A stretch of DNA of 64,000 nucleotides from a virus: IMG/VR virus record IMGVR_UViG_3300044467_000006, positions 30,361 to 94,360 of that record; one strand, given 5' to 3'. Positions 17,190-47,790 of the stretch are shown one piece after another. Below the pieces are notes generated by a model. It did no database searches, was not told the origin of the DNA, and was given only the letters and a program-made list of their open reading frames with translations. Position 1 is the first letter of the stretch. Every line of letters begins with the position of its first letter. The position numbers and the translations under genes are program-made.

Positions 17190-20100
17190 TTAGCTCCGAT
17201 TTACAGCAACGTCGTATCCGCCCCACTTGCCGTCGATGGGCGCGTTCGGGGCAGACTCCCATGCCGCTTCAGTTGGATATTTGGCCGATGGATAGTTGGG
17301 AGTTGCTTCGTAGTTAAGGTTGTGCTTGACTGCCAATTTGTTCCACAAGCCATGAGCCAGCGAGGAATGAATCAACCCTCGTAGGTGCGTAGCTCCCCAA
17401 TGCTTGGTGGCACTTGCCATTAGGCTCTCGTACATGGGAGTCCCCAGCCCCTTGCCGGTGTGTTCGTCGTTGATGTTGGCAAGGTCGATCTGGGCATACT
17501 TACGAGTCTCGTTGTTCCTGATAACTGGAGTATCATCCACGAACAACGACGCTCCACCGACGATGCGATCCCGATGGTAGACGTTTGCGATAGTTGAAGG
17601 ACCGAACGTTCCGTTGCTCGCGTGTAAGGTCATCCTGTATCCAGCGTTGCGGTGCTCTGGCGTCAAGTAGTGGGTTGCGTCGTAAATGCGTTCGCCACCC
17701 TGAACTCTAGGATTTTCAAGTGGGGGTAGCGTCGCAATCGACTTGGCTAGCTCTTCGTAGGTCGGCAGTTCTTCAAACTTGCGGACAATAGAGGTGTGGA
17801 CCTGCTTGCCCACCAAATCTCCGCCGTAACCGCCGCTGTCGTTTTCTTCGGCATGCGGATCGGTTCCAGAGAAATACCTGTCATCATCCATGTCATAGCC
17901 CATCTTAGCCGGAATCGCGGTATACGTAGTCGGCAGCCAGCCCGGGGGTTCGGCGGGATCGAGATCGCGGAGTTTGGCAGCCGCATCGTGCCCGGTGATT
18001 CGCACTTTGATGTTCGGGCCATGCTGCTGACGAAGGTGCTCGTGGAATGCCTCTAGAATAGCCTCGTGAGGGTCTACGTTTTTGCCGAAAGCAATCTCGT
18101 TAATCTTGTCAAGATGATCCGACGGCATATTGGAGAGAGTCTCTAAACTGCTCGCCTTCCAGAAGTAAAACATCTGTGGAGGATTCACCCTTCCGTTCGT
18201 GATTTTTGCCTGTTCAAGCGCATGCTTGTAGTTGGCGGTAGCACCATGCCAAGAGAGGCCGGCCTTGTCCTGCGGACGGAAGTCTGACTGAATCTCAGAA
18301 ATAAAGACCTTCCCATTACTATCTACAGGACGATAACGGACCCACCCGAGAGTGTGGTTGTCGAGAGGGTGGATGTCCTTCTTACCGCGAATAAGCTTCT
18401 TGAAGGTTGCCCAGACGCCAGATGCCTTCATCTGCTTGACGTGCTCGTCGGTTAGGTTGACTTGGAAGACGCTGTCTGCATCGCGCCTAACATGCTGCTG
18501 AGCCCCACCGTATTTTGCAGACCCGACATTGAACTCCTTGACAGGCAAGGAATCGATATACTTCTGGACACTTTCGGTCGAAACGAAATCGGACTTCTTC
18601 TTGACCGGGCCTGTCGGACGATTCTTTGGAGGAATCTTTGCGATCTCCTCGGGGGTCATATCCCTCATTTCGCGGGCACGGTCATAATTGAGTTGCTTGG
18701 GAAGCTCGTTAACGTGAGCCCTCCCTCCACCGGCAGTATCAATAAGGTCGCGGACCTTACGCCAAATGGCACTGCCGAATCGAACGACAACGTGAGGAGA
18801 CTTCGCTCGATAATGCGCGTTAGGGGACGACTCCTTCATAAGTTCCCCGATGGCCTTACCTAAAGAAACAGCGGTGTGTTCGGTTAGCCACTGAGGATCG
18901 AGCCCGTAATATTGCAAGAGTTGATCTTGCTGAGCCATCTTACTATGAAGGTCTTTAACCCATGCCTCTGGAGCATGCGGAGATTCTGCCAGATAATTGT
19001 AGAATGCGTGAGCTTTCTGTTGCGCGGTATTCCTTGCTCCTTGCCAGTGCTCGTCTTCTCCCCAGTTACCTTCTGGCATAACAGCGCGGGCCTTTTCGAT
19101 CATCTTGTTGACCGTGCTCTCGGGAAGATTGGAACCTCTCAGCAGTTCTCTATAAAAGACACTGTCGAACGGCCCGCGATCAATAGCGTCATCTCTCCAA
19201 GCTGGGTTTGCCTTGGGGTTGTTTAAGAAGCTTAAGGTCTCTAATTCGGAATCATTGCCAGCAGCAAGGTGCTTGTTCCAAATAGTCTCCAACACATTCT
19301 CGGGGATATGTTTGCTTGTAACAGCCTCGGCGGTGGCTTGTGTGACAGGCGATACTTCAAAATGCCCATCGTTTAGCATCTTATTCCAATGTTCGGGCGC
19401 CAATTTGCTACCGTAGGATTGCAGGAGGTGACGTAATGCCTCGTCGTGCTGGCCTTTGCTCCAAGGGACATTGCCTTGAGAAGCAACTTGGTAAATTGTA
19501 TACCCATTGTCATCGTATTGGTAATGACCTTCATTGTCTAAAGCTGGATTTCGGTTGAACACTATCGGCTTCATATCCAAAATGGCCGAAGCATGCTCCG
19601 AAGTAAAGTTAGGGTGCTCCATCAAAGGAAAGACGGAAGCAACCTGCTTTGCAGTAGACATCAAGTGACTAATGTGGGCAGGTGTCAAAGCCGGGGAACG
19701 GGCTAGATTGTTCTGGACGCCTGCCTTGAATTGGGGAAGGCTCTCTTCGCCCCAGTCGCTATCTCGGCGGAATCCTTCTGGATTGCCGGATGGCGAGGCG
19801 GATGTGAACTCGGGGCGGGAAAGAACGTAATCAATCCATTCCGGCTTGGCGTCAGAGCGATTGAGAATGCTATCAATGATTGAGTGACGCTTGGAATTTC
19901 CCAAGAGCTTGACCGCATTTCCGTGATCAACACTCCGAACGAACTCCACGATCGCGCCAACGTCCGGGTCTTGCGGCGGTCGTTGTAAAAGGTAATCAGT
20001 CAGTCGGTCGTCTACGCTCTTATCCTTTAGCCCAAGGGCATCTCTCCAATAAAATGGATCGCTTTCCGTTCTGTCATTGTATCGGTCTATGTTTCCCCAC

Positions 20101-27705: not shown

Positions 27706-29130
27706 TTAGCCCTTGACGTTATCCACGAGCACATTTTTTCTGGGCTGGGGAACCGTGAGTGTGAGAAAGCGGAAGTGCGCCTCCGGGATCGAGAGGTCGG
27801 TCACAGCTAGCTTGAGGCGGCTGTAAGGCGATAGCTCACGAACTTCCATCGTGTCTCCTTGGATGAGGTAGCCAGTCACGAAGCCCGGGATCTTGGCCCC
27901 GGTGTCATCGAACTGAACCACGTTCGCGCTACGATTGACGCGGCCAATCCACTTGGTCGTGGTCCCGCCAACTTCCGAGCGGTACACGTTGAAGTAGAGC
28001 GGTAGTGCGCCACCGCCAGTGGTGATGTCGAAGGTGATACGGTCACCAGCGACAGACGCCACGGTTAGAACTGCGGACGCAACGCTTTCCCCAAGCTCGT
28101 TACACGCGGTAACGATGTAGTTGTAGTTACCCGTGAGCAGCGCGCCAGTTGCAGGGCTTGCGCTGTTACCAAGGGTAGGAGCACCGGGAACGCCGGGGCG
28201 GGAAGCCTGCGGACGAGTCTTGCCAGAGAGGAAGCGGGACGCTTCAAGCTGGACGGTACCACCAGAAACCCACTGACGACGGAGGTCCGCGCCAGAGGCA
28301 TCTTGCGGTGAACCGGCAAGGATGATGCGTTCCTTTTCGAACGCTAGCTTGTTGTATGCAGCGAGCGACCTCGGGTCGAGGATGAGTCGATCCGCGTTAC
28401 CCATGTTCATCGCAGAGCGAACAGCCGCGTCTTCGATGTTGGCTTGGGTTAGGACGCCCGTACCGTGCGAGCCGTAGCCCGGAACGGTGGTGAGGGAAGC
28501 GATGCCGCCACCCTGAATGACAACGGTTTCGTCGGAGCCGTACTCGCCAAACATGAGATCCTTGGCGTTACGCTGCGCATCCGACTGACGAACCTGCTCG
28601 CCAAGTCCGAGGACGTTGGGAAGCGGGGCGATAGTACCCGGGTTGCCGTCGAACACGCCGATGTTGCTGAAGCCTTCCTTACCACGGAAGAGGTCGAACT
28701 CAACGTCAGCCGAAATCTTCTTGGCTGCCGAAGACGCAGCACGCTCAGAGGCGTCCTTGCCGTCAACGGTGTTGACCATGTTGGCCACTAGCGTCACGCG
28801 ACGAACGTGTGAGTAGTAGCACATGGGAACCACGACACGGACGTAGTCGTCCGTGAATTCCTGACCAACAGCGCCTTCGATAACAGCCGTCCCGCCGAAG
28901 CCGCCGTAGCTAAGCTGACGATCAAACTGAACGAGGGTGCTCTTCGCGGGGCTCACCTTAAGCATCTTCTGAAGCTTAATGTGTGAGTCATCGAAGGTGA
29001 CATTGTTCATAACCGGGGAGAGATCCTCGGTCTGTAGAGCGCTGCCTTGGACGAGTGAACCGGGGGCCGCATCATATCCGCCCGCCTCAAGTGCCTTAAC
29101 TAGCGACTGTAGTTGTTCCAGTGCGTTCAT
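27706..29130 (-). CDS. Major capsid protein with Ig/FN3-like insertion
   Basis: 474 aa from MNALEQLQSLVKAL (AAGGAG upstream). Features expected of a HK97-fold capsid protein of large phages: a long N-terminal arm, VVVPMCYYSHVRRVTLVANM (E-loop/P-domain region), SAMNMGNADRLILDPRSLA and a C-terminal LSIPEAHFRFLTLTVPQP. Residues about 300-400 hold an inserted beta-domain (GNYNYIVTACNELGESVAS, YFNVYRSE), like Ig/FN3 decorations on phage capsids. Followed by a strong terminator and preceded by scaffold-like and decoration-like genes. Family identity is from context and pattern. Confidence 0.75.
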   Translation of the reverse strand: MNALEQLQSLVKALEAGGYDAAPGSLVQGSALQTEDLSPVMNNVTFDDSHIKLQKMLKVSPAKSTLVQFDRQLSYGGFGGTAVIEGAVGQEFTDDYVRVVVPMCYYSHVRRVTLVANMVNTVDGKDASERAASSAAKKISADVEFDLFRGKEGFSNIGVFDGNPGTIAPLPNVLGLGEQVRQSDAQRNAKDLMFGEYGSDETVVIQGGGIASLTTVPGYGSHGTGVLTQANIEDAAVRSAMNMGNADRLILDPRSLAAYNKLAFEKERIILAGSPQDASGADLRRQWVSGGTVQLEASRFLSGKTRPQASRPGVPGAPTLGNSASPATGALLTGNYNYIVTACNELGESVASAVLTVASVAGDRITFDITTGGGALPLYFNVYRSEVGGTTTKWIGRVNRSANVVQFDDTGAKIPGFVTGYLIQGDTMEVRELSPYSRLKLAVTDLSIPEAHFRFLTLTVPQPRKNVLVDNVKG

Positions 29131-29140
29131 TGTATTCTCC

Positions 29141-30022
29141 TTACTTGAGAAGGTGCTCGATGGCGGCGAGATTAACTCGGCCCTCATAGAACCCCGTGAC
29201 TAGGTCGCGGTCCGACTTCTTGAAATCTGCGCTTCGCGTAAGCTCACTGAGCTTGGCGGTGATTTCTGCGGGACTGACCGGCTTCTTCGGTGCTTCTTCC
29301 GACTTAGCGACGTAAGAAGTACCAGTGATTGCTTTCTGCATCGGCTTGTTGACGACAGTGGTAACGATCTTGGTTAGTGCCTCGATCTGTGCGTGTAGGT
29401 CAGCGATTTCTGACTTGCTGAATTCCCCGCCGTTACCAGCCTGAGAAACTCCGATGTTCTTGCCTTCGCCCATTGCCATCGGGGGAGCCCCAGCAGGCGA
29501 CGGACTTGCACCGGGAGGGGGAGGAGCACCCGCGCCTGCGCCCGGAGGGGCAACAGGAGCCGACGGACCAGCACCCTGCCCACCACCCATGACTTGCATG
29601 AGTGCAGCCTTCGCTGCTAGGTAGTGAGCCTTGAGTTCCTCTGGAGGAAGCTGAGCATACTCTTGCTCAAGCGCGGCCGGATCAACTGGCCCGCCTTCGC
29701 CCCCACCTTCTTGACCGGGAGCGCCACCCTCCATACCGGGAGGAGGAGCTTCGCCACCAGCCCCCGGAGGTGCGCCACCTTCAGCGCCCATCGGAGGTGC
29801 GCCACCGCCCGCAGACGGAGGACCGCCCGCACTAGGAGATCCACCCGCAGACGGGGAGCCTCCAGCGGCAGATGCAGAGCCCATACCGGGGGACGGAGAA
29901 CCGTCTTCCTCGCGGGCCTTTGCTAGCCTGTTTTGCGCGTCAGCCAGAATTTCGTTGAGTTCACCGTCGAGTTCACCGAGGATGTTGTCAAGTTCCTGAC
30001 TTGATACCTTGAGATTTGCCAT
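29141..30022 (-). CDS. Putative scaffold/internal head protein, Pro-Gly-Ala rich
   Basis: 293 aa. A helical start (LDNILGELDGELNEILADAQ), about 100 residues of Gly/Pro/Ala low complexity, then a coiled-coil-like segment (SEIADLHAQIEALTKIVTTV) and a helical C-terminus. Its position directly before the capsid gene and its composition fit a scaffold or capsid-assembly protein. Two KSE tags (FSKSE, VAKSE) flank the helical part and may be processing sites. Function inferred. Confidence 0.55.
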   Translation of the reverse strand: MANLKVSSQELDNILGELDGELNEILADAQNRLAKAREEDGSPSPGMGSASAAGGSPSAGGSPSAGGPPSAGGGAPPMGAEGGAPPGAGGEAPPPGMEGGAPGQEGGGEGGPVDPAALEQEYAQLPPEELKAHYLAAKAALMQVMGGGQGAGPSAPVAPPGAGAGAPPPPGASPSPAGAPPMAMGEGKNIGVSQAGNGGEFSKSEIADLHAQIEALTKIVTTVVNKPMQKAITGTSYVAKSEEAPKKPVSPAEITAKLSELTRSADFKKSDRDLVTGFYEGRVNLAAIEHLLK

Positions 30023-30628: not shown

Positions 30629-30949
30629 ATGAACAGATACAAGTGCTTGTCTTGTGGCCACGAAAAACGCAGAACGGAATTCTACGAAAAACGTAGCAAT
30701 AGCGCCAAGTTAAGACCTGTATCTTCAGATTGCCGTATTTGTCGCAGCACCAATCGTTCGGTTCAAATGGGCGCGACAATAGATGGAAACTGCCAGCGCT
30801 GTGGAACGCCAGCGATCCTGTCAAGCAATAAGCAGTGCAAAAGATGCCTCAAACAACAGGGGCTAAAGCAGTGCCGCTCCTGTCGAGAGGTCAAAATCGT
30901 AGAGTTGTGGTTTTACGAGAAGAAGGCTCTCTGTAAGGACTGCCTCTAG
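30629..30949 (+). CDS. Cysteine-rich multi-zinc-ribbon protein, lone plus-strand gene in the late block
   Basis: 106 aa with five CxxC pairs (CLSCGHEKR, CRICRS, CQRCGT, CKRCLK, CRSCRE) and a last CKDC. The first 50 residues resemble the zinc-ribbon start of endonuclease VII/HNH homing proteins (compare CPHCKEVRFKKDF at 61062), but no nuclease core follows. It may be a remnant or a regulator derived from one. CAATCTT sits 7 nt before the ATG. Inserted against the direction of its neighbours; the stop overlaps the GGDEF gene stop by 4 nt. Confidence 0.6.
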   Translation: MNRYKCLSCGHEKRRTEFYEKRSNSAKLRPVSSDCRICRSTNRSVQMGATIDGNCQRCGTPAILSSNKQCKRCLKQQGLKQCRSCREVKIVELWFYEKKALCKDCL

Positions 30950-31668
30950 ATGAGATCGAACTCGTTGTCTAGAGGAATCGCGCCTTCATGGCCGGGTAAA
31001 AGGCTATGGACATGAGTCTTTGCCTGTCCCGGGGCATATCGCATGGCGTTCTTGGTCTTCTTGGCGTGCTCGCGCACAGCTTCGTCCGCCTTATCAGCAG
31101 TATGGGCGATCCCGATTTTGAGACTGTGGTTGAACCGTCCCGCAATGGGAACTAGCTGTCCCAACCGCTTGGTAATCTCGCGGGTGTAGTGAGCGGCCCG
31201 GGCGTGATCCTTGGAAATGTCGCCAGTCTTAGGAATCAGAGTGTGGAATTCATCCCCGCCCAGACGGTAAATCTTGGCGGTGCCCTTCCCCAGTACAGCG
31301 TCAGCCGCTTCGCGATGAACATTGGCGTAGTTTCTGATAGCAAGATCGCCCTGATCATAGCCCGCGTTGTCGTTCATAGCCTTGTGATCGTTGCCGTCGG
31401 ACCGAACGTGGATGTACTTAGTGTGAAAATCTGGAGCTTCAGACTCGTCAGTGTACGCAGCGTGATTGCCCACAACTCCATTCGTGAGCTTGTCGAGATA
31501 CATGCGCTGGCGAATTACGTCAAAATACTTCTTGTCTTCTTCGGAGCCAGTTTCCGACTTACCCCGGAAATGGGCCATAGCCTCGCGAAGCGCAGGATCG
31601 GTCTTGGCAAGCTCTTCAAAATGAGCCGACATAGCTAGGAGCTTTTGTGCGACGTTGAAGACTTCCAC
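30946..31668 (-). CDS. GGDEF-domain protein (diguanylate cyclase-like)
   Basis: 240 aa, GTG start. Residues about 55-195 follow the GGDEF fold: MYLDKLTNGVVGNHAAYTD (like D-LTGLxNRxA), KYIHVRSDGNDHKAMNDNAG then YDQGDLAIRNYA, and YRLGGDEFHTLIP with an intact GGDEF loop at 137-141. GGDEF enzymes make cyclic di-GMP from two GTP; a GTP-binding effector role without catalysis is also possible. It sits within the capsid gene cluster, 1 nt after the upstream stop, so a virion-carried enzyme is plausible. Confidence 0.75.
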   Translation of the reverse strand: MEVFNVAQKLLAMSAHFEELAKTDPALREAMAHFRGKSETGSEEDKKYFDVIRQRMYLDKLTNGVVGNHAAYTDESEAPDFHTKYIHVRSDGNDHKAMNDNAGYDQGDLAIRNYANVHREAADAVLGKGTAKIYRLGGDEFHTLIPKTGDISKDHARAAHYTREITKRLGQLVPIAGRFNHSLKIGIAHTADKADEAVREHAKKTKNAMRYAPGQAKTHVHSLLPGHEGAIPLDNEFDLI

Positions 31669-31669
31669 G

Positions 31670-32242
31670 CTACACCTTCTTCCTGTAGCGAAGCTTGCCC
31701 AAGCCAGTCTCTAGAGTGTACATGATGCGCTCGGTCTCTCTGGTCGAGAGCTTGGTGCCGTTCATAAACACTTCCTGCCCGTGAACCTCAAGAATCTGAG
31801 GCTCCTTCATTCCAACCCTCATGTAGTCAAAGACCGCAGGAGGAGTTTGCATACTGAAGCGAGGAGAGTTGGGGTCCACGATCTGGGGAGCTTCTGCGCT
31901 TGCGGGTTGCTCGACAACATCAGGCGGGCTGCCGGGTTGCGGACCGGAAGGATCGGGATTTTCTTTCCCTTGAGGGATTAGTCCTATGTGATGCCCTTCT
32001 TTGACCTCAGACTCGGAAACCACTTGAGTATATGGAGAGCGAGCCAAGGAATCAAGTTGCTGTAGACTGTGCCCAACAGGACCATTGGACAACATCTTGA
32101 GCATGCCGTTATGATCCTCAAGGACTCGGAGCTTCCCATCTTCGATCATGAAGCGGCCCAAAAGAAGTCGCTGGTTGCCCTTCTCGTTAGGATAGACCCC
32201 ATATACATCGAAGATTCCGTTAGCATTTTGGAAGTCAACCAT
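31670..32242 (-). CDS. Putative virion protein with proline-rich centre, 190 aa
   Basis: N-terminal beta-rich part (GIFDVYGVYPNEKGNQRLLL), a Pro/Ser-rich disordered middle (about 90-125), and a C-terminal helix-rich part. No family recognised. Between the protease-kinase polyprotein and the GGDEF gene, with gaps of 2 nt and 1 nt. Confidence 0.5.
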   Translation of the reverse strand: MVDFQNANGIFDVYGVYPNEKGNQRLLLGRFMIEDGKLRVLEDHNGMLKMLSNGPVGHSLQQLDSLARSPYTQVVSESEVKEGHHIGLIPQGKENPDPSGPQPGSPPDVVEQPASAEAPQIVDPNSPRFSMQTPPAVFDYMRVGMKEPQILEVHGQEVFMNGTKLSTRETERIMYTLETGLGKLRYRKKV

Positions 32243-32244
32243 AG

Positions 32245-35200
32245 TTATCCCTTAATGTATTTGCCCATATGCTTGTGGATATGTGGCTCCATGTAGTCCA
32301 AGATGCGCTTCTGGAAATCTTGGTCTGTTTCTCCATCGCCTCGCTCTGGGCCATGCCACTGTCGAGACAATGCATCTAAACTATAGCCTAAGCTGTTTAA
32401 ATACCCCGCCGGGTCTGCACCTTTGGAGATTCCGCGGGCCAACCTATTGGCCCCTTCGTCCCTATTGCGATGAGCCTCTCGCCTCTCCGAATTTCCTCGG
32501 CGGCGAATTGAGTTATTGAATTCAGTAACGGCTTCATCAAAAGTCATATCGGCGTGATGAGCAAATTTCTTGATGATGTTCTCGGCTTCTCCCGGGCCAC
32601 GATTCGACATGAGAAGCTCGTAAGGAACGGGCGCTTCGCCTTTTCTTGAAGCCGACTCATGGTCCTTACTTACTGCAAGGCTAGCGAGGTCGTAGTCCTG
32701 CTCAGCTTCGGGCAAATTTTGGATACGAGCCTTTACCTCTTTAACCCGTTCTGCGTGACGAGCAAGGACAGAGAAATCCTTGTATGCCCTCTCTCGAATC
32801 TGAGGGGCATGCATTCCTGTCCATCCCGAATTTGCAAACCCCAGATAAGACGTGATTTCGTCCACCGATGCGTCTGGCTCTACAGACGCATAGTGTTGGA
32901 GATTCTCTAGCCGCTGCCGTGCCGCCCGAGCTACGGAAACAGGAACATCGTGATCTTGGATCTCTTTAGTAAACTTGTCCTTGTCGATGCCCATCAGCCA
33001 TTTTCTGGCATCGGGATGCAAGCGGTTGTCATTGTGTCCGGCGGCTTTTGCCGCTTCCTGTGCAGGAACCATATAATCGCTTCGATCGTCGCCTACACCA
33101 CGAGAAGGGAAAGAGTCGCCATGGTCAATGAGGTAGATGTTATCTCCTTTAGCCCCACCGAACATGAAATTGTTTAAGTGGCGGTCGCGAGCACCAAGCA
33201 TCTGATCTGCGAGAGCCAATTTGTGAAGCTTGCCGTTCTGAATATTCTTTACGAAAGCGCTATTTTGCTCCTCGTCCCCATCGCGCTGGTGAGCGGCGTT
33301 GGGAATAGCCTCATGAACGGACCACCAATCATTGGGCCTTGGCTCTTCGTTGGTCTTCAGGTTGGGGTTTTGGAAGATTGAAGTAGGAGCTACGTGCTCG
33401 CCCAAGCCAAGATGATGCATCATATTGTGAAACATGATCTCGTTAAGCGCACTGGATCTGCCATCTCGCTGAGTGGAAAGAGTCTTGATGAAAGCTTGCT
33501 TGCCATTAGGTAGCTTGACCCATCGGCCTTCGGAGATACCCGACTTAAAATGTTCTGGCGAAAACTGGGCTGCGGCATTGTGATCAAAGCCGTGGACCAT
33601 CTGTCTCTGGTAATCATTGATGATTAGATTTGAAGGCACGTGACGATCGGCATCCACAACGCCCGGTGGCATGTCGAGGAACTCTGGCTCCGAGTGAACT
33701 TCAGCGGAACCGTCAATGCCCCAGCGCTCCATGTGCTCTGGAGAGAAAGATCCAAGATGTTCATGAGGAACCATCAGCCATTCACCGACAGGTGCGTCGG
33801 GGTGGGCTGGAGCCGTGCCAACGATAGCCATTTTGCGACCACCTTCAGCCCGGGTACCATCCTTGTTGAAATAGATAGTGGCAGAACCCGGCTTGATCTT
33901 TTGGTCCTTGTGAATGATGGTCGGCTGTGAGGTCGGGGGCCATTCCTCTTCGGGCTGAGCCGGGAGAGTGCCCTTTAGAAGATTGGAGCCTGACTTGAAA
34001 AGACGACGTGCTTCAACCTCGAACGCTTCCATCTTGCGAATAGAAGTTTCGTCATAGCTGCGGGTTCTGTCGTTGGTCATCAGCGCGGGGGCACCCCAAG
34101 TGTAAAAGAAGAAACTGGCCGGTCCTTCGCCAAAATCCTTCTCAACACGCTTGGTCGCCTTGGCAATGCGAACCGTAAGCGGCTCGCCGTACTGGTCCTG
34201 AGATTTCTGCATGTTCCACATTTTAGACGGATCGGTTAGGTCGTGGGGGATGCCTTCCTCGTCCATGATTTGGCCAACCGACTTAAAGAATGGGTCGTGG
34301 GCCGTCCCCATGTTGAAGTTGTCAGTATCTCGACCAAGCAAAGCTTCATAGTGCGGATACGCAAGCCATTGAAGCCAGAACGCGGGACCAACCGCTTGCA
34401 TCTCGCGGCCCTTGAAATGATCAGGCCACATTTCGTGAACCTTCTGGACAGCAGGAGCCTTCTGGAAGAAATGATGGTCGATACCGCGCAAAAGAGTTTC
34501 GCCACGGACAGGGGTAAGGGCGTTGAAAACCTGTTTAGCTTGCTCTGAGTTTTTATCGGAGATGTTAAAGAGAGCGCGAAGTTGGTGACGGTCGGGAATA
34601 ATCATATTACCCTGCCCCATCATCAAACCCATGTATCGAGCGAGCTTAGGCCCAAAACCATACATGAAGGAGTCGGCTCCCTCGCTTTGCTTCTTCTGCA
34701 TGATATAGTCAACGAACGCTCGGCCGTCGTCCTTGACTTCCCGCTGTAGAGCGACCATGAAGGGGTGAAATCTGTGGTAATTCAGGAGCGGTCTGCCTTG
34801 CGGCCGATCCGCTAGAACAGCGCCAGACGTGGCGGGGTCGTAACCCGCTCGGCGCTTGGTGCGGGATGCGTCATACTCGATTCCGCCCTTCTCTTGGGTA
34901 CGACCAACATAGAAGTCGCGGAAAAATTCAGGAGGGGTAGTCTTGTTGAGCCAGCGGTGAAAGTGCTCTGCGTCCTCTGGTTTGATACCTTCGGGCTTGC
35001 TAAAGACATCGCCGTGCTTCGCTCGGAAATCCATATAGTGCCCATAGTAAAGCTCCTGCATAGGCACGCTGGTATTTGGGGACATTGCAGCAAAGATGGC
35101 GGCATGGGCAATAACGCTAGACGGTAGCTGGCCCTGCGAAGCCATCTTGTTGAGCACCAGCCACGAGGACATGGCGCGCTGCCAAGGTTTATGAACGTAG

Positions 35201-36519
35201 TTGACAATCTTCTCCCTGCGCTCTGGGTCGAGCATGGGAGAAAGAGAGGGACTGTCTGCATTTAAAACGTTGAGAAAGTGCTCGTCTTGTCCGTAATCAT
35301 ACAGCTTGAGCGGCGTTGTTGGAGTGCTCAACTTCTGACTTAGCAGTTCTCCCCTAGCAGTTAAGCTTCTAGAAGCCTTTGTCTTGGGAGGAACTTCCAG
35401 TGGATTGGCCGCTTCAGGACGAGGGTGATACATCTTGGGTTCTTGGGGCTGGGCTTCGGGAGCCGTAGTCTCTGGAGGAGCAGAAGCCATAGAAGCAAGA
35501 GCTTGCTCTGCTCCGCGCTTCTCGGCTTTCTGGACTGCTCCCCAGACGCCCATGGCCTTTTCAACCCAGTCGCCAACCTGACGGGTACGGATGTCCCCTA
35601 CTAAATCAGTGAAATGGTCTAGAAAGCTCTCGTTGATTTCGGGTAGCTGAAACTTGAAGAACTTAAGCATGTCGGACTTGGAGTAGCCGTGCTCAACAGG
35701 GCTGTAGTCTCGAACGGCAGCCCTAAGCTGGTTCTTGAACTTCTCCTTGTCCTTCATGCCCATGATATCTTCTCGGGCAAGCGCCGCGCCACCCGTGAGA
35801 GTAGAAGGAGCGGCATCGCTAGCTCCACCGGTCATGGTCTTGTTAAGTGAGGGATCTCGGGCCTCAACTTCAACATAACGAAGATCCATTGCGTGGCTAC
35901 CAAGTTTCTGGTGTCCCGGGCGCTCACTCTTGACGGTGTCCTCTTCTAGTAGGCGAGCTAACAGACTCCTCTCGGCTTGCTTCTCGGTAATGGGCTTTGG
36001 AGCATTGGGGTCCGACACGAGGCCCGAGATCGCTGCTTTGTTGGCTGGCTTAAGGGTTATAGCCACAGCCCTACAGATGGTTTTAACTAGCTTTTGCCCT
36101 TCTTTTTTAAGTGTTGAGCCTTCCACGCTGTAGCGGGCAAGAATAGGCTCATTGTGAGTTACAGAGTCCCTGATGATAGCGGCAATTGCCTTAGCGCCCG
36201 CATGCCCAGAACCATCAAATAGGCGAGCTTTGATATACACGAAAGGTAGATTGGTTGCCTTCCAGTAGGCTTCTTGGCGCTTGTCGTCACAATCCTCTTT
36301 GCTAAAAATCTTCTTGGCAAAAATGATTTTGCCCACAGTGTCATTGCCTGATGCACCAGAGGAATCCGATCCTCGATGTTCCCAATTAAGGGTGCCCACT
36401 CCAGAGGTGAAGTCGCTAATGTCCGCTCCGTTGATGTCAAGGATTTCGCCGCTGCTATCAATAGCACTAGAGCAAGCAATCCCGTCGATAATCATACTGT
36501 TAGTGGAAGTCGCGGCCAT
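32245..36519 (-). CDS. Prohead protease fused to HhH-GPD-like and kinase-like domains
   Basis: 1424 aa. Residues 1-175 match a prohead serine protease (GIACSSAIDSSGEILD, LNWEHRG, ARYSVEGSTLKKEG with S131, VAITLKPANK). Residues about 400-720 resemble a HhH-GPD DNA-glycosylase core in polyvalent proteins: IFAAMSPNTSVPMQELYYG, YGFGPKLARYM (K625) and IIPDRHQLRALF (D643). Residues about 990-1200 are a kinase-like domain: KQAFIKTL, ALNEIMFHNM, LADQMLGARDRHLNNFMF (D1112) and IYLIDHGDSF (D1132). The protease would normally mature the capsid. Fusion of all three is very unusual and implies self-release of the rest. Confidence 0.75.
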   Translation of the reverse strand: MAATSTNSMIIDGIACSSAIDSSGEILDINGADISDFTSGVGTLNWEHRGSDSSGASGNDTVGKIIFAKKIFSKEDCDDKRQEAYWKATNLPFVYIKARLFDGSGHAGAKAIAAIIRDSVTHNEPILARYSVEGSTLKKEGQKLVKTICRAVAITLKPANKAAISGLVSDPNAPKPITEKQAERSLLARLLEEDTVKSERPGHQKLGSHAMDLRYVEVEARDPSLNKTMTGGASDAAPSTLTGGAALAREDIMGMKDKEKFKNQLRAAVRDYSPVEHGYSKSDMLKFFKFQLPEINESFLDHFTDLVGDIRTRQVGDWVEKAMGVWGAVQKAEKRGAEQALASMASAPPETTAPEAQPQEPKMYHPRPEAANPLEVPPKTKASRSLTARGELLSQKLSTPTTPLKLYDYGQDEHFLNVLNADSPSLSPMLDPERREKIVNYVHKPWQRAMSSWLVLNKMASQGQLPSSVIAHAAIFAAMSPNTSVPMQELYYGHYMDFRAKHGDVFSKPEGIKPEDAEHFHRWLNKTTPPEFFRDFYVGRTQEKGGIEYDASRTKRRAGYDPATSGAVLADRPQGRPLLNYHRFHPFMVALQREVKDDGRAFVDYIMQKKQSEGADSFMYGFGPKLARYMGLMMGQGNMIIPDRHQLRALFNISDKNSEQAKQVFNALTPVRGETLLRGIDHHFFQKAPAVQKVHEMWPDHFKGREMQAVGPAFWLQWLAYPHYEALLGRDTDNFNMGTAHDPFFKSVGQIMDEEGIPHDLTDPSKMWNMQKSQDQYGEPLTVRIAKATKRVEKDFGEGPASFFFYTWGAPALMTNDRTRSYDETSIRKMEAFEVEARRLFKSGSNLLKGTLPAQPEEEWPPTSQPTIIHKDQKIKPGSATIYFNKDGTRAEGGRKMAIVGTAPAHPDAPVGEWLMVPHEHLGSFSPEHMERWGIDGSAEVHSEPEFLDMPPGVVDADRHVPSNLIINDYQRQMVHGFDHNAAAQFSPEHFKSGISEGRWVKLPNGKQAFIKTLSTQRDGRSSALNEIMFHNMMHHLGLGEHVAPTSIFQNPNLKTNEEPRPNDWWSVHEAIPNAAHQRDGDEEQNSAFVKNIQNGKLHKLALADQMLGARDRHLNNFMFGGAKGDNIYLIDHGDSFPSRGVGDDRSDYMVPAQEAAKAAGHNDNRLHPDARKWLMGIDKDKFTKEIQDHDVPVSVARAARQRLENLQHYASVEPDASVDEITSYLGFANSGWTGMHAPQIRERAYKDFSVLARHAERVKEVKARIQNLPEAEQDYDLASLAVSKDHESASRKGEAPVPYELLMSNRGPGEAENIIKKFAHHADMTFDEAVTEFNNSIRRRGNSERREAHRNRDEGANRLARGISKGADPAGYLNSLGYSLDALSRQWHGPERGDGETDQDFQKRILDYMEPHIHKHMGKYIKG

Positions 36520-39591: not shown

Positions 39592-41526
39592 TTACCCCCT
39601 CTGCTCATCAAGAGCTAGGTACCCGCGCTTGACGAACTTGATCTGCCCACCAGTCGTAAACCCGTAACCCGGCAGAAGAGTGACTAGGGTGCAGCGGCAC
39701 TGCCCAGTCACAATCCCATTTGCACAGACAGTGTTGGTCATTGGCTCCGTCAAACAATATGTTTGATGTCTTCCAATGGGGGCTATCTCAATCACCCTTG
39801 CGGTTCGCCAAGCTCCATGCAATTTCTTACCAGCGTGCACCTGAAGATAAGAAACGGCCCTAGCTTGCTTGGTAGCTACTCCAAGCCCGATTTCTCTCAA
39901 AAATTTCTTCACAGCGTCAACGCCGCCAATACAAAGCCGCCAACAGGGTTTACGCTCGGCAATAAAAGAATCTCCATTGTGGTATTCGATCTCCTTAGCC
40001 CCGCCCTCCCCGTGTTTGAAGATTCTAGCAACGATCCCCATATTGGCCAAGAGCACTTGAATTTCTTGCAAAAACTCGCGATCGTTTTGCACCAAGACAA
40101 TGGACGGGCTAATTTCAGAATGGCCGTCTGCTGCATATAACCCACGCAAAAATGAGCTAACGGTAGATTTACTCGCTCCCCAGATTTTAGAAGGGACCCT
40201 CTTGGGCTTCTTATCAAGCCCGTATACCTCTCGAAACCGCCTCCCAAGGTATGCACTGCTAAAGGTCGCTCGTTCAACGCCGTATTTCTCGTCTGGAGGC
40301 TTAACCACCATCTCGGGAAGCATTCGAGAAGAAAGCGATGACGCCTTTCTTTTAAGGAGAAAGCCGTACTCGATATCATTGCCAAAGAAATTCCATTGAG
40401 CCACATTGCCGCATAGAGATCCGTCTCCGAGCAAATTTCCCATTAGCTCCGCTTCATCCTCGAAAGAGTCGGCTCCAAAAGCTCCCTCACCAGAAAGTAA
40501 CGGAATTTTATCACCAATCTTCAAAGCATCGGCGCGTACTTTGGCTCCTCCAACTCCATTATCTACCCAGAATTCGTGCCCCACCGATACCTCTAGTGTA
40601 TGGCCTGAATCTAATGACACCCGAAGGCACTCTTGTATTCCTGTGTCGTATACGGGAGTAGCATCAAACATTTCTGTGCCGCTAGAGTGGCGATGGTACC
40701 AAACATCTCCGGGAATTCTATTTCCAAATTGATTGTTGCCTACTCGCCTGTTTTTGATTCGGTTGTCTACGGGAACTTTAACGGCGCCCCCCTGCTTATA
40801 CAAATCTTCAACTGTCAAGAGTCCACGATCTGTAAAGAGGCGAGTAGTACCCACAAAACAATGAGGGTGAAGCCCCCCAATACTTGGAGAGTCGCTGCCC
40901 TTCCTGTGGTATCCGTGCGCAATTTCGCTAAGCTTCCAAAGCCTAGGAGTTACTCCATCATCCATGAGGTGGAGCCGCTTGCACTCATCGCAAAGGTATT
41001 CATCTCGGACCACGACGAAGTAGACGACAGGATCTTCAACCCCAGCGTTGAGGTTGACCCCGATGACGCCATCTAGCACCGACACGTTCTTTGCGTGAGC
41101 TATCTCGGTGTCTACAATGGTGTGGATGTTGTTGGTCACGTCAGACCAAACGGTCGCCAGTTTGGCGTTCACCAAGTCCCTAAAGTCCGACCCCGACATG
41201 CCGCCAGTGTGCTTGGCTTGTGCAATGGCTCCGTTGATTTCGTGGATAACTCGGGCCTTAGTACGCTCGCGGGACGCTTCAATGTAAGCAGAAGCCACAC
41301 GAATCAGAGAGTCAAGGATTTCTAGGTCTGGCTTGACAGTCTCTTCGATGGAACCGGCTTCAAAGATGCCCGGCAGAGACAGCGTGCGATCAAAGGTGAT
41401 GTAGATTTTCTTACCCTGAATAGACTGCGGCCCCAGCAAGCGAACACTCGCGTTGTTAAACATGGTATCGATTGCGTCGGCCACAGCTTGCGCTGCGCCT
41501 CTACCGAGTCGCGTCAGATTAGGCAT
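39592..41526 (-). CDS. Mu gpF-like head morphogenesis protein, interrupted by an intein
   Basis: 644 aa precursor. The extein (222 + 35 residues) has the Mu-F pattern: helical N-terminus, VDTEIAHAKNVSVLDGVIG, VVVRDEYLCDECKRLH, and the conserved GGLHPH-CRCTLVTLLPGYG split by the intein. Mu-F-like proteins sit at the portal vertex and act in head assembly or are injected. The intein occupies residues 223-609. Follows the portal gene with a 1-nt gap, as is typical. Confidence 0.85.
   Translation of the reverse strand: MPNLTRLGRGAAQAVADAIDTMFNNASVRLLGPQSIQGKKIYITFDRTLSLPGIFEAGSIEETVKPDLEILDSLIRVASAYIEASRERTKARVIHEINGAIAQAKHTGGMSGSDFRDLVNAKLATVWSDVTNNIHTIVDTEIAHAKNVSVLDGVIGVNLNAGVEDPVVYFVVVRDEYLCDECKRLHLMDDGVTPRLWKLSEIAHGYHRKGSDSPSIGGLHPHCFVGTTRLFTDRGLLTVEDLYKQGGAVKVPVDNRIKNRRVGNNQFGNRIPGDVWYHRHSSGTEMFDATPVYDTGIQECLRVSLDSGHTLEVSVGHEFWVDNGVGGAKVRADALKIGDKIPLLSGEGAFGADSFEDEAELMGNLLGDGSLCGNVAQWNFFGNDIEYGFLLKRKASSLSSRMLPEMVVKPPDEKYGVERATFSSAYLGRRFREVYGLDKKPKRVPSKIWGASKSTVSSFLRGLYAADGHSEISPSIVLVQNDREFLQEIQVLLANMGIVARIFKHGEGGAKEIEYHNGDSFIAERKPCWRLCIGGVDAVKKFLREIGLGVATKQARAVSYLQVHAGKKLHGAWRTARVIEIAPIGRHQTYCLTEPMTNTVCANGIVTGQCRCTLVTLLPGYGFTTGGQIKFVKRGYLALDEQRG
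39700..40860 (-). other. Intein in the Mu-F-like gene, with non-canonical GQ|C end
   Basis: 387 residues. Begins CFVGTTRLFTDRGLLTVEDL (block A), has HTLEVSVGHEFWV (block B), two LAGLIDADG-type motifs (ELMGNLLGDGSL, FLRGLYAADGHSE) for a homing endonuclease, and ends VCANGIVTGQ before Cys of CRC. The usual terminal His-Asn is Gly-Gln. Terminal Gln inteins are known, but the changed penultimate residue may slow splicing. The insertion site is within the HPxCRC motif. Confidence 0.85.
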
Positions 41527-41527
41527 A

Positions 41528-43591
41528 TTAAGCCTTCTTCTTGGGTGAGTGTTGCTCTGCTATATCAAGGATTGCGGAAATGGTCTTCTTTGCGTCCTGT
41601 TCCCATCCATCCATGATGTGGGAGACGGTCTTCTTCTGCTGTGCGAGGAGTCTGCGCTTGGAGGGAGGTAGCTGGGCTTCGGACTTACCGAGGGTACCGA
41701 GCAACTGGTCTACACTCCTCGTTAGGTCGCCACCACCCTCTTGGTCAGGAGGAGCTTCGCCTTCCTTGGGGGTAGCTTCCTGCCCGCCCCCGCCTTCTCC
41801 TCCCCCTTCGGGCTGCGGGCCTTCGCCTCCACCCTCTGGAGGCGGACCGCCCTGCTGAGCTTGTTGCTGTTGGGCTTGGGCCTGCATTTGCATTTGCTGT
41901 TGTTGCATTTGCATTTGTTGCATCTGGAACCAGAAAGGGTCTCGCATGTAAGCCATGGCCGGATTCTGAGTAGCTCCCTTAACTCCAAAGAACTTCTCTT
42001 GGATCTGGCCAACGGTTAGATACTTGTCAAGAATGGCTTGGAACTGTGGGTTAAGCGGGAACTCGCCACCAAACTCCTTGCCGATAGGATCCTTTTCGAC
42101 TTTCGCCAGAACCTCGTCGTAGTTCATGTGCAAAGGAGCGTCCGTAGAAATGCGGACCGCTTCCTTCTCAGCGGAATCGGCGTCTAGGCCAACGAGCTTA
42201 ATGACGCAAAGCTTGGCTAGCTCCTCGTCCATGACGGGGAATACAGCGGTGTTAAGGAAGTCTTCAAACTGGGCAAGTAGAGGGCGAATGCCAGTATCTC
42301 TGTGGGCCTCTAGCTGATATTCCTTGTTGGACTCGGCAAGCGACTGGTTGTTGGTGCCTCGTGAAAGGTGAGCATAACCCGGGAGTTCTTCAGGAGACAT
42401 CTGGAACGCCGACAAGATGACTCGGGCGTTCATGTCGCTTAGATACTGGAATTCCATATCTCGCGACGTGGTTTCGATCTGCTGGAACTGGACGTTGTCT
42501 TTGGAGCCAACGCTAAACACAGGCATGCGCCACGAGTTGTTGACGTTGTTGATGTTCGCTTGAAACTGCTGGCGAATTTTGTTAACCTGTGGCTCGGTCA
42601 GATCCTCGGATTGAATGACCAACATTCCCTTAGCCGCTCGACCGCTCTGGAAGAAGAGCTTGTTGTGGGTGGTAATGTTGATGTGGGTGGTGACTGCTGC
42701 GATGACCGTATCCAGCGGAGTAAGAGGGTAGCCTTGAAGCTCAACGTCGGTAACAGGGAAGACGTTGTGGACGTAAAGCTCCTCGCCCGTAAACACCTGA
42801 ACGGGCTTGCCATCGATAACCTGCACCCACGGATATTCCTCTTCCTCAAGCTGTTTTTCTTCCAGCTTGCGGTTCAGCATCTGTTCCATGAGGCGCTTGG
42901 CTTGAATGCGGACGGCCTCGGCAGAAGTCTTGTAAGGAGCAGCGCGGTAGATGGTACCCGCGTCAACAGGACGGAAGGAATGGAACTCCTCTTCGCCACT
43001 GTCGTTGAAACCGTAGAGGAATTCCGTCGCAAACCTACCAACGACAAGAGCGTTGCGCACTTGCATAGATAGGAATCGAGAAAGGGTCATCCGTTCTTCG
43101 ACGGCATAGCCCTTAGATGTACCACAAACCAGAAGCCGTTGCTCAAACTTGTTAGCTCTCTTGCCTAACTCTTCCTTTTCTTTCTCGTCTGCTCGCTCGA
43201 TAATTTCGGGTTTGATGTCAACCTTGAAACCCAGAGAAAAACGATCTGGCTGTGGACGGCCGAACGCGCTAATGTGGTTAGAGCGGGCACCAATGATGGA
43301 AGCAACGAGGTCGTCCTGAATTGAAACGCGCTTGAGAAGAAAGTCAGGAATGAGGCGAACCTTCTGACGGAAGATTGCCGCATACTCGTTGTTCATCGTC
43401 GGATCGCGCTCGAACGCTAAGCGCTGAATCCGGTCTTCTCCTTCTCCAAGGGCAGCCATCATGCTCTTAACCAACGAGGTTGCCCCGGGCTGATCGTCTT
43501 GCTCTTGCTTAAGAAGCTCAGAGACAGGCGTACTGTTGGGGTCAGCCAAGAAGAGTTTAATTTCCTTGGTGACTGCGGATTTCTTAGCCAT
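41528..43591 (-). CDS. Portal protein
   Basis: 687 aa. Portal-type features: a helical N-terminus, VRNALVVGRFATEFLYGFND, YPLTPLDTVIAAVTTHINIT, KGMLVIQSEDLTEPQVNKIR, and QMSPEELPGYAHLSRGTNNQ, leading into the long SLAESNKEYQLEA stem-like helix. The C-terminal 150 residues are low complexity: a Gln/Met run (about 560-590), then Gly/Glu/Pro repeats, an LGKSE tag and a basic helix. Forms the dodecameric ring for DNA entry. The low-complexity tail suggests an extended or processed region. Confidence 0.85.
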   Translation of the reverse strand: MAKKSAVTKEIKLFLADPNSTPVSELLKQEQDDQPGATSLVKSMMAALGEGEDRIQRLAFERDPTMNNEYAAIFRQKVRLIPDFLLKRVSIQDDLVASIIGARSNHISAFGRPQPDRFSLGFKVDIKPEIIERADEKEKEELGKRANKFEQRLLVCGTSKGYAVEERMTLSRFLSMQVRNALVVGRFATEFLYGFNDSGEEEFHSFRPVDAGTIYRAAPYKTSAEAVRIQAKRLMEQMLNRKLEEKQLEEEEYPWVQVIDGKPVQVFTGEELYVHNVFPVTDVELQGYPLTPLDTVIAAVTTHINITTHNKLFFQSGRAAKGMLVIQSEDLTEPQVNKIRQQFQANINNVNNSWRMPVFSVGSKDNVQFQQIETTSRDMEFQYLSDMNARVILSAFQMSPEELPGYAHLSRGTNNQSLAESNKEYQLEAHRDTGIRPLLAQFEDFLNTAVFPVMDEELAKLCVIKLVGLDADSAEKEAVRISTDAPLHMNYDEVLAKVEKDPIGKEFGGEFPLNPQFQAILDKYLTVGQIQEKFFGVKGATQNPAMAYMRDPFWFQMQQMQMQQQQMQMQAQAQQQQAQQGGPPPEGGGEGPQPEGGGEGGGGQEATPKEGEAPPDQEGGGDLTRSVDQLLGTLGKSEAQLPPSKRRLLAQQKKTVSHIMDGWEQDAKKTISAILDIAEQHSPKKKA

Positions 43592-44622: not shown

Positions 44623-47600
44623 CTAGAAGGACCAAGAGAAGCCGCCAGCCCTTCCGGCCTTATCAGAAGGATCCCCCTCCTCTTCCTCGTAGACAATACC
44701 TGTGCGCTCAGAAATGATCTGGCGAAGCCACGTTTCGGGCATGTACTGCTTTTGACCATTAAAGGCTCCCGGAGATGGCTGGGTGGCAATTAGATTAGCT
44801 TCCCCAATCGTCACCTTGGTCTTGGGAGAGAAGGTGTTGAGCACGATGTACCTGAAGGCGTCAACTTCGTCGTCGTCCTCGTCGTCAGGAATGTTGGTTA
44901 GACGGCCTGCGGCATCAGAAGTCCAGTGATAGTTGGTGACTCGGGTAGCCAGAAGCTCGCAGCCTTCATCGGCCTTTAGGAAAAAGATTCTAGCCTCATC
45001 TGGGCGACCCATGGAGGGCATCAAAAGCCAGCGGATCAGAGAGATGCCGTCAACTACGGACCCCTTCCCCTTATTCCACTCCTTGATGCGTAAGTTGGCT
45101 TCTTTCTTAAGGGTTTTGTTGTCCCCGGGGTTCTCGGTATCTGCCCAAACCTCTGGATCGATGGGCTTGACCCTCTCCTTGCACAGTTCAATCTTCTGGG
45201 GAAGCTCTAGTTCTGCCTGTGAAATCACGTCTAGAATGAACAGACGATGTCCAAGGATAGCCCCGACAACCACTACGAAGTTGTGGGTAAACCCGTGGTC
45301 GATACCAGCTACGAATCTGGCTCCCCGCTCCTTGAACATCTCAATGGCGGCGGCTTTGTCCAAGGCGACCTTTGGCTTCTCGCCAAAGACAAGTTCGTAC
45401 ATCTGGTCGGGATCCTTCATGTGAACTTCCCGGTCGAAGTTGGGGAAGATCAGCCCTTCGGACGAAGGCTTGCGGCAGAGCAACTGGGCCTTGGCCTTAT
45501 CCAAGGACACCTTACGGAAGGTGTTTTGGGTGTGTTCAACGGGCTTGGGGAATCCACGGCACCCAACGCCGTTGTTCCCTTCGCACTTCGTACACTTCGG
45601 AATGTCTGCGAGCCGCCCCTTACAGACGGCAAACAGACGGCAATTGGCGATACATCCAGCGTAACCTTCTGCTACGTTGTACCTTTCCTTCTCAGTTGTA
45701 TCTAAGAGTTTATAGTCGTCGTAAGTGATCGCCTTCAGTGTATCGTCTGAGTAGGCAATGGGCACCTTTGGGAGTTCAGGCTGGTGCCTAGTAGCTGGAC
45801 AATTGTGAGTAACGTCGATGAGGTTCCAGTGGCGAACAAGGAGGCCAGTGTCGGCTGCGCGATCGAGTTCTTTTTGAACGAGCCCCCAGCTATACTTGCG
45901 AGTAGAGGTGTAGAGGGTGATCGGCATCAGCCCATTGATAGGGGCCGGGATCATCTTGGCCTCTTCGTAGGCGTCTGGGTTCTCGACAACATCAACCTCA
46001 TCTACGACCATTACAGGAACGTGCTCGGAGTTGTGAAGCAAGAATGCTGAATTGGCGATAAAGTTGCGCTTTTGCTCCTCGGTCTTGAGATGGAGATCGA
46101 TGAGATACCTCGGCCCTAAAAATTCCAACTTGGAGATTTTGCCCCCAAAGCGACTTTCAAATTTCTTAAGGGAAACTCTCTGTGTTCGGCTGAGAGAGCC
46201 TCTCGGGTGCTTGGTACAACCACTAAATCCGTGGCGGTTTGTCTTACTTACGGTATCGCCACAAACGATACACTTAGTATCCATCCATGCCGACGGCACC
46301 GGAAATTTGTATTTCAGTCCCGGCGAAATGTAAGGATCTAGCATGGCAGAAAGCCGCCGAGAAGAATCCAAGGTTAGAGAGACGATTGGGTATTGATTAA
46401 CCCCGTTGCTTACCTTATCCACGTAAGCATCAAGCTTCCAAGTGTCTTTGAGCCAATCTACGATTAGCTGATTTTCCTCTAGAGTGAAAGAGCAAGTAGC
46501 TAAGGAGAGGTGTTTGTCTTTTCTGGATCCCACCAATTCCGGCGAACCAGAGCCATCGTCCATAAACCAAAAAGCCAGAGCTTCCAAGTCTACCAACTCC
46601 AAAACCTCTGAAGTAATCGCTTTCCGCCCGGTCTTGTATAGAAGGTCGTAGAAGGGGATTAGCTTTAAGGACGTTTTGCTGAAAAGCTTGATTTGATTGC
46701 GGCGATCTGGAACTATGCTATGGGGAATTCCCATTGCACTCAAGACGGTCGCCTTGCGCTTTAGATAATGTTCCTGCTTCTTGCAGTGATTGACCGCAAA
46801 GCGAGGAGCCTTCCCGTACTTCGCCTTCTTCTTATTTCTTGGCCACGTTAAACTCGAATCACCCAACAAAGTGCCAAGCAGAGCCGACGAGTTGGAAGAG
46901 CACGGCAAATCCAAAACAACAGCATCAGATTCGTCTTCCCGAGGAGAAGCCCCTACCGAAAGGCAAGAATCTCCAAGACGAAGAGCCCGAGCCCTAACCC
47001 ATCCAGCCCGAGTAAACACCGCATGGTCTTCAGATAGCACCACACTCCCCCCACCCTCTAAAGACACCCTCATTGCATTCTTAAGAGTGAAGGCGGCAAA
47101 GTCAACTTCCGTTTCCGTATACTCTCCAGTCGCCAAGTCCATGGAGACAAGGCGGTCGCCCGGCGTTACAAGAGCGGCAGCCTTCTTTCCAGACACGGTA
47201 TCGATCATCGTTTCTGGATCAATACAGTTGGCACCCTGAATGGTACAGATAATGATCTGAACGTAGTTCTTGATTTCGCGGTACTGGAGTTGAGCGTCTG
47301 CAAGCAGAGCTTCAAACTCGCCTTTAGTTAGATTCTCTCCGCTCTCCTCATTGAAGTAGCGGGTAATCTCGACCGTGCGCTCGTTCTTGGACGTGATGTA
47401 GTCTCGGATGAACGGACGGGAAACGTGCTTCTTGAAATACTGCTGACTCTTCTTGGCCTGCGGTTCGATTGCGGCCATGTGGGCAACAGAGCGCTCTAGT
47501 AAGATGAGGCAGAGGACTTCAAAGATGGCGGCGGAAAAGGTTTTGAAGGAGTCTCGGGCGGCGTATGCCATGACCTGAGAGTAGCCCGGCTTATTTAGGC

Positions 47601-47790
47601 GCGCGGCTTCATAAAGCTCCCAAACCAATTCCATGGGACTAGAGTTAGAATCAGGATCCACCCGAATGATGGGAAGGTCGATGCCTAGATAGACCTTAAT
47701 CCACCGATGGAGGTCTTCTAGGGTTTCGGGCTGCACAAAGAGCGCGGCTCTGAGTTCTGCTGGAGTGGGCTTACCTTGGTCGTCTGGCAT
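44623..47790 (-). CDS. terL: Terminase large subunit, interrupted by an intein
   Basis: 1055 aa precursor; the extein is 656 aa. ATPase: AYAARDSFKTFSAA (Walker A-like), CTIQGAN-SEHVPVMVVDEVDVV (Walker B, split by the intein), then TLYTSTRK (coupling motif). A cysteine-rich insert (CIANCRLFAVCKG, CTKCEGNNGVGC) may bind zinc. Nuclease: FVAGIDHGFTHNFVVVVG with a first Asp, VWADTENPGDNKTL, and DEDDDEVDAFRYIVL. Cuts and pumps DNA into the prohead through the portal. Intein is residues 189-587. Next gene upstream is an HNH endonuclease. Confidence 0.92.
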   Translation of the reverse strand: MPDDQGKPTPAELRAALFVQPETLEDLHRWIKVYLGIDLPIIRVDPDSNSSPMELVWELYEAARLNKPGYSQVMAYAARDSFKTFSAAIFEVLCLILLERSVAHMAAIEPQAKKSQQYFKKHVSRPFIRDYITSKNERTVEITRYFNEESGENLTKGEFEALLADAQLQYREIKNYVQIIICTIQGANCIDPETMIDTVSGKKAAALVTPGDRLVSMDLATGEYTETEVDFAAFTLKNAMRVSLEGGGSVVLSEDHAVFTRAGWVRARALRLGDSCLSVGASPREDESDAVVLDLPCSSNSSALLGTLLGDSSLTWPRNKKKAKYGKAPRFAVNHCKKQEHYLKRKATVLSAMGIPHSIVPDRRNQIKLFSKTSLKLIPFYDLLYKTGRKAITSEVLELVDLEALAFWFMDDGSGSPELVGSRKDKHLSLATCSFTLEENQLIVDWLKDTWKLDAYVDKVSNGVNQYPIVSLTLDSSRRLSAMLDPYISPGLKYKFPVPSAWMDTKCIVCGDTVSKTNRHGFSGCTKHPRGSLSRTQRVSLKKFESRFGGKISKLEFLGPRYLIDLHLKTEEQKRNFIANSAFLLHNSEHVPVMVVDEVDVVENPDAYEEAKMIPAPINGLMPITLYTSTRKYSWGLVQKELDRAADTGLLVRHWNLIDVTHNCPATRHQPELPKVPIAYSDDTLKAITYDDYKLLDTTEKERYNVAEGYAGCIANCRLFAVCKGRLADIPKCTKCEGNNGVGCRGFPKPVEHTQNTFRKVSLDKAKAQLLCRKPSSEGLIFPNFDREVHMKDPDQMYELVFGEKPKVALDKAAAIEMFKERGARFVAGIDHGFTHNFVVVVGAILGHRLFILDVISQAELELPQKIELCKERVKPIDPEVWADTENPGDNKTLKKEANLRIKEWNKGKGSVVDGISLIRWLLMPSMGRPDEARIFFLKADEGCELLATRVTNYHWTSDAAGRLTNIPDDEDDDEVDAFRYIVLNTFSPKTKVTIGEANLIATQPSPGAFNGQKQYMPETWLRQIISERTGIVYEEEEGDPSDKAGRAGGFSWSF
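46030..47226 (-). other. Intein in the terminase ATPase domain
   Basis: 399 residues, from CIDPETMIDTVSGKKAA to NSAFLLHN|SEH. Block B is SVVLSEDHAVFT. LAGLIDADG motifs: LLGTLLGDSSL and ALAFWFMDDGSGS. An extra CIVC...GFSGC element near residues 507-525 looks like a zinc finger. The canonical HN end plus Ser +1 predicts active splicing. The insertion point between Walker A and B (the GAN|SEH site) is a familiar terminase intein site. Confidence 0.92.

Follow-up and report, generated by a model that had tools for sequence, protein, structure and literature searches.

The internal proteins and Alt of phage T4 are head proteins that the prohead protease trims and that leave the head along with the DNA when it is ejected. 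The same is described for the ejection proteins of SPN3US (PMC7411985, PMC10052503). In the 2017 survey of polyvalent proteins (Iyer et al., PMC5512222), assemblin-like peptidases were always C-terminal, and zincins were the usual processing enzyme. Here, we describe a 1424-aa protein in which a prohead protease is followed by a copy of the N-terminal arm of the major capsid protein, a helical domain, and a kinase domain. It is encoded by a large virus of bacteria in a stretch of 64,000 nucleotides (the window), which corresponds to positions 30361–94360 of a 94,360-base viral contig (IMG/VR record IMGVR_UViG_3300044467_000006). With moderate confidence, we regard this fusion as a polyvalent cargo protein that has the prohead protease as its base and processes itself. 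The fusion and its parts are as follows.

32245..36519, minus strand: 1424-aa fusion of prohead protease, capsid-arm copy, helical HhH-GPD-like domain, kinase, and C-terminal extension (open reading frame with homologues of like layout)
35920..36519, minus strand: S78-type prohead protease domain, aa 1–200
35761..35850, minus strand: copy of the N-terminal arm of the major capsid protein, aa 224–253, predicted cut between K227 and T228
35575..35760, minus strand: conserved segment at the C-terminus of the basal protease, aa 254–315, kept in passenger-free proteases of 313–319 aa
35338..35574, minus strand: low-complexity linker, aa 316–394, candidate sites K321/A and K331/A
34207..35337, minus strand: helical domain MID, HhH-GPD-like, aa 395–771
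34576..34662, minus strand: HhH-GPD-like motif YGFGPK(625)LARYM...GNMIIPD(643)RHQLR, aa 620–648
34201..34206, minus strand: candidate cut site K772/S773, directly after the helical domain
33991..33996, minus strand: candidate cut site K842/S843, before the kinase
32857..33783, minus strand: PI3/PI4-kinase/HipA-fold kinase domain, aa 913–1221
32248..32856, minus strand: C-terminal extension, aa 1222–1424, no match found

The open reading frame (ORF) starts with ATG and reads from 36519 down to 32245 on the minus strand. An earlier note, made from the letters of the window, had placed a prohead protease with fused domains at these coordinates, which were correct, and the motifs ARYSVEG (S131), VAITLKPANK, and GFGPKLARYM...IIPDRH (aa 621–645) were all found in the ORF. 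The same note was right that prohead proteases normally consist of 150–300 aa; the fusion, however, is a widespread family trait and not a one-off anomaly. A phmmer search of PDB sequences with the whole protein gave no match, and a single-sequence search of viral contigs gave no relatives. Unlike the single-sequence query, a two-row alignment search of viral contigs recovered relatives, and about 53 non-redundant protease ORFs, some of them cut short by contig ends, were gathered by alignment searches. The isolated Myxococcus phage Mx1 (OR576727) encodes a homologue of 1239 aa (WNM70322), which aligns to query residues 1–1208 and is annotated as 'putative prohead protease', and the genes downstream of it match those of the window.

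By profile comparison, residues 1–315 are a complete S78 prohead protease of the SPO1/Herelleviridae type. The N-terminal profile matched a Herelleviridae protease alignment led by SPO1 gp3.2 (HHalign 98.9%, E 3e-17), and 10 of 16 members matched phrog_1028 (head maturation protease; best 1e-7). The Pfam Peptidase_S78 cut-off was passed by the SPO1, LysYB1, and 521B proteases. His48 and Ser131 are invariant in 16 relatives, and both align with SPO1. The protease gene adjoins the portal, scaffold, and capsid genes. In L101, L107, and L110, only a protease of 313–319 aa with the arm is present, similar to the SPO1 protease of about 256 aa. Because these passenger-free proteases match the SPO1 protease, the passengers are, as judged from the alignments, C-terminal additions after residue ~315.

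The region between the protease and its passengers was compared with the following genes.

27706..29130, minus strand: major capsid protein, 474 aa counted from an inner ATG
29017..29106, minus strand: N-terminal arm of the capsid protein, SLVK/ALEAGGYDAAPGSLVQGSALQTEDLS, predicted cut after Lys12
29141..30022, minus strand: scaffold candidate, enriched in hydrophobic-x-Lys-Ser/Ala/Thr sites

Residues 224–253 of the fusion, SLNK/TMTGGASDAAPSTLTGGAALAREDI, are a copy of the arm of the capsid protein of this phage, SLVK/ALEAGGYDAAPGSLVQGSALQTEDLS (the slash marks the predicted cut). In a phmmer search, segment 206–330 repeatedly, though weakly, matched the major capsid proteins encoded in the same genomes, and the capsid protein of the window, used as the query, matched protease fusions in other genomes. 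A profile of the capsid arm detected the linker of the protease in almost every relative, with E-values down to 1e-12 (3703 ORFs) and 7e-5 for the window fusion, and this result is not circular because the profile was built from capsid arms alone. Its sole non-protease match above noise was a 118-aa ORF in L019. Among the 17 records behind the loci, the motif was found in the capsid protein and the fusion wherever both genes were present, and additionally in this 118-aa ORF and in a few sub-threshold matches. At its N-terminus, the L019 ORF (20771–21124) is a duplicate of the capsid gene's 5′ end, with 73 of 100 bases identical; it may encode a small protein tagged with the capsid arm, or it may be debris. 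When SPO1 gp3.2 was searched against all PDB sequences by phmmer, the single match was the SPO1 capsid protein gp6.1 (E 2.4e-6); the SPO1 arm copy is longer, with protease residues 161–217 corresponding to capsid protein residues 15–71. The PHROG 'major head protein' also matched the SPO1 and LysYB1 proteases at the arm region. A description of a capsid-arm copy in SPO1-type proteases was not found in the literature searched, in which few subscription journals were covered.

The lysine in the arm is invariant in all 25 aligned arms and aligns K227 of the fusion with K12 of the window capsid protein. The Herelleviridae capsid protein 5lii has 463 residues and reads EDVVK(24)SFQTGYG, and entries 9row, 9rox, and 9roz contain a 439-residue chain of the same protein beginning at S25, directly after Lys24, which aligns with Lys227 of the fusion. 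A cut at the arm lysine is therefore shown in a homologous capsid protein; in the literature searched on Herelleviridae capsid processing, the N-terminus of the mature capsid protein was not given. Hydrophobic-x-Lys-Ser/Ala/Thr sites are enriched in the scaffolds of SPO1-like phages and of most of the fusion-bearing group, numbering 11 in SPO1 (1.7 expected) and 6 in the window candidate (1.5 expected). The fusions conserve this pattern at K227 (16/16), at K772 (10/11), and near K842, where 9 of 12 relatives have a Lys-Ala/Gly site at most 3 residues from that position. The larger alignment of the helical domain has Lys at position 772 in 29 of 29 relatives, and the next residue is Ser or Ala in most of them. 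Based on the cut in the capsid homologue, the site enrichment in scaffolds, and the conserved K227, K772, and K842 sites, we infer a Lys-directed protease that would cut its own chain as well as the scaffold and the capsid protein.

Similar sites were observed elsewhere in the window. The C-terminus of the portal (41528–43591, minus strand) reads LGK/SEA at aa 636, and the Mx1 portal reads ISK/SEA at aa 639, a possible processing site. A 650-aa protein (6225–8177, minus strand) has 10 hydrophobic-x-Lys-Ser/Ala sites versus 2.8 expected and is a candidate internal or processed head protein. In an 1867-aa protein (17190–22793, minus strand), GNAT-like repeats each follow a Leu-x-Lys-Ser/Thr stretch (K6, K215, and K1684); its total site count is not enriched (8 versus 6.3), and it is only a lead.

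Taking together the domains, the arm copy, the conserved Lys sites, and the way in which passengers are exchanged as modules, all of which are shown by the sequences, we infer self-cutting, encapsidation, injection, and passenger activities, which may proceed as follows. The fusion chain would co-assemble into the prohead, where the protease would recognise hydrophobic-x-Lys sites followed by Ser, Ala, or Thr, trim the capsid protein after Lys12, digest the scaffold, and cut its own chain after Lys227. The passenger would be cut after Lys772 and probably near Lys842. The capsid would then enclose the HhH-GPD-like domain and the PI3/4K-like kinase as individual enzymes, along with the GGDEF protein of a neighbouring gene. 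The freed enzymes would be ejected with the DNA and act early on host or phage targets. As the fusion carries a copy of the cutting signal of the capsid protein, shell maturation and the release of the enclosed enzymes probably both rely on one and the same cut. The earlier note had proposed that the protease could release its own passengers inside the capsid; the arm copy with its Lys after the protease, which that note had not noticed, and the K772 site support this release independently, and cleavage, packaging, and injection are predicted steps. More tentatively, the arm copy carried by prohead proteases of the SPO1-like lineage may, in the present group, have become the junction of a virion polyprotein, so that shell maturation, scaffold destruction, and the release of the attached enzymes would all fall to one Lys-specific protease; a released passenger would then start with a mature-capsid arm, which could fasten it to the shell or to a binding partner.

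The main alternative, a rather unlikely one, is that the arm copy serves as a docking tag at the binding place of the capsid arm and carries the protease and its passengers into the prohead, with the chain remaining intact or being degraded with the core. The similarity spans about 28 residues around the Lys, and about 57 in SPO1, which exceeds what a cut site needs. Moreover, the protease arm shares 16.0 of 25 residues with the capsid arm of its own genome and 14.5 of 25 with those of other genomes (permutation p 0.0003); this closer likeness speaks for the self-processing reading as well, and the co-variation within genomes fits binding to a shared partner. A mere tag accounts less readily for an invariant Lys that is the cut point in the homologous capsid protein, and for the second Lys-Ser/Ala site at 772, which lacks an arm and is nevertheless invariant at Lys. 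The arm copy could be both a cut site and a docking tag.

Several points weigh against the self-processing cargo reading. Sequence alone cannot separate a cut site from a docking tag, and the resemblance of the arms within a genome may result partly from shared ancestry. The arm is degenerate or undetected in L008 and a few other relatives, and the Mx1 equivalent of K772 reads K/N. The whole fusion is only moderately enriched in sites (16 versus 6.6 expected), with several of these lying within folded domains, and the enrichment was not significant in the fusions of several relatives. The Lys specificity rests on one distant capsid-protein family and on site enrichment, and the HhH-GPD assignment discussed below is weak.

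The passengers vary among relatives, and in many of them two further genes of the window are involved.

31670..32242, minus strand: H190, 190-aa protein, part of the protease chain in several relatives
30946..31668, minus strand: GGDEF-domain protein with intact GGDEF motif, part of the protease chain in several relatives

Among the approximately 53 ORFs, the layouts were protease-arm-MID-kinase (17), protease-arm-MID (13), protease-arm-kinase (11), and protease-arm (6), plus a few others in which no arm was detected. The chain extends into the H190 and GGDEF domains in L018, L073, L077, L078, L112, L115, and L125 and carries GGDEF in L060; in most other relatives with a downstream region, H190 and GGDEF form one downstream gene. 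Beside the capsid gene, the protease occurs alone, with the kinase, with MID, with MID and the kinase, or with MID, H190, and GGDEF. These states are scattered over the protease tree, which has no support values and was used only for this scatter. A ParB-like domain is inserted in L012. In L074 and L127, an inserted stretch resembles an ADP-ribosyltransferase by eye and is a candidate only.

The protease and kinase parts proposed in the earlier note were confirmed by family, profile, and structure matches. PF00454 was matched by 11 of 16 members (best 1.7e-8), and the kinase model (pLDDT 80) matched CtkA, PI4KIIalpha, and the HipA entry 3dnv in Foldseek. The kinase motifs read ARDRHLNN...LIDHG in the window fusion and are degraded in L008 and L014 (e.g., HPSRTWGD...VNNG), which suggests from the active-site residues that these two domains are pseudokinases. 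Two further PI3/PI4-kinase-like genes were observed in the window at 10560–12332 and 12549–13694 (both minus strand); one is fused to a GNAT acetyltransferase, and both have a Leu-x-Lys-Ser/Ala site near the N-terminus.

The reading of MID as an HhH-GPD domain, to which we give slightly better than even chances, is plausible and not proven. K625, D643, H645, and R648 are invariant in 30 of 30 relatives. The K625–D643 spacing is 18, as in E. coli Nth, and HHalign pairs these residues with the Lys and Asp of Nth, which are its catalytic residues. When MID was compared with 11 E. coli proteins by HHalign, nth, alkA, and mutY ranked first to third, above the eight others; nth beat 150 of 150 shuffles with a probability of only 20%, and mutY was within the shuffle range. 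MID is predicted to be all-helical, and its fold is unproven because its structure model is poor (pLDDT 56) and had no PDB match in Foldseek. Searches of PDB sequences with the MID profile and of Pfam with its members gave nothing relevant. Although K625 (the 'APKT' Lys) fits the cut-site pattern, it lies in the HhH-like motif and was left out of the cut-site count. In some relatives, inteins are located inside MID directly after VPMQELMY. Inteins favour conserved functional sites.

Less probable still than docking is a role confined to the infected cell, in which the passengers would serve head assembly or packaging as inner-core or DNA-handling proteins and would not be ejected as effectors. 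The location of the genes between the portal and capsid genes is in keeping with such a role, as are the presence of MID in most fusions and its inteins at one conserved spot, as in essential housekeeping domains. However, passengers are freely swapped or lost (kinase only, GGDEF only, or none), catalytic residues have disappeared from the kinases of L008 and L014, and kinase, GGDEF, and GNAT domains are characteristic of polyvalent proteins that are injected (PMC5512222). Finally, the idea that an error of sequencing or assembly has joined separate genes, akin to the sequencing frameshift that the earlier note had named as refuting, can be dismissed, because the same unbroken fusion recurs in the isolated phage Mx1 and in dozens of independent metagenomic phages.

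The head module of the window is arranged in the order of portal, MuF-like gene, fusion ORF, 190-aa gene, GGDEF gene, scaffold candidate, and major capsid protein. The genes for the terminase large subunit (44623–47790, minus strand) and the MuF-like protein (39592–41526, minus strand) contain intein-like insertions with LAGLIDADG homing endonuclease domains. A homologue of the chaperonin Cpn60 is encoded at 55204–57063 (plus strand), and Mx1 also encodes a GroEL.

If the self-processing cargo reading is true, protease, cargo, and cargo release would be combined in one gene, which would explain equal amounts of several internal enzymes in the head. Concrete cut sites are predicted, and Mx1 is an isolated phage in which they can be tested. 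Because the predicted cuts fall after Lys, the processing would be invisible to routine tryptic proteomics, and this blind spot may be why it went unnoticed. The arm copy in SPO1-type proteases offers a way into the question of capsid-protein recognition by these proteases, and, used as a tag, it could direct selected proteins into phage heads.

Compared with known systems, the fusion shares its architecture with Mx1 WNM70322, which has the same neighbours (H190, GGDEF, scaffold, and capsid protein) and differs in its length of 1239 aa, in lacking the C-terminal extension, and in having Asn after the equivalent of K772. SPO1 gp3.2 (Peptidase_S78, phrog_1028) is a homologous protease with the catalytic-type His and Ser and an arm copy after the protease domain, and its gene order of protease, scaffold, and capsid protein is the same as in the window; the SPO1 protease has 256 aa and no passenger, whereas the window fusion has about 1100 further residues. 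In T4 and SPN3US, the cargo proteins are encoded by separate genes with a propeptide or targeting sequence, whereas cargo and protease form one chain in the window. Similar to the polyvalent proteins (PMC5512222), which are predicted to be packaged and processed by peptidases, the fusion family combines several disparate enzymatic domains in one chain, namely the protease and kinase, with GGDEF nearby or fused in relatives and ParB in one relative. The window fusion differs from them in having a true prohead protease, located N-terminally, with a capsid-arm copy. Polyvalent phage proteins with peptidases are known, and what appears to be new, as judged from the literature searched, is an N-terminal prohead protease joined to its passengers through a copy of the capsid arm.

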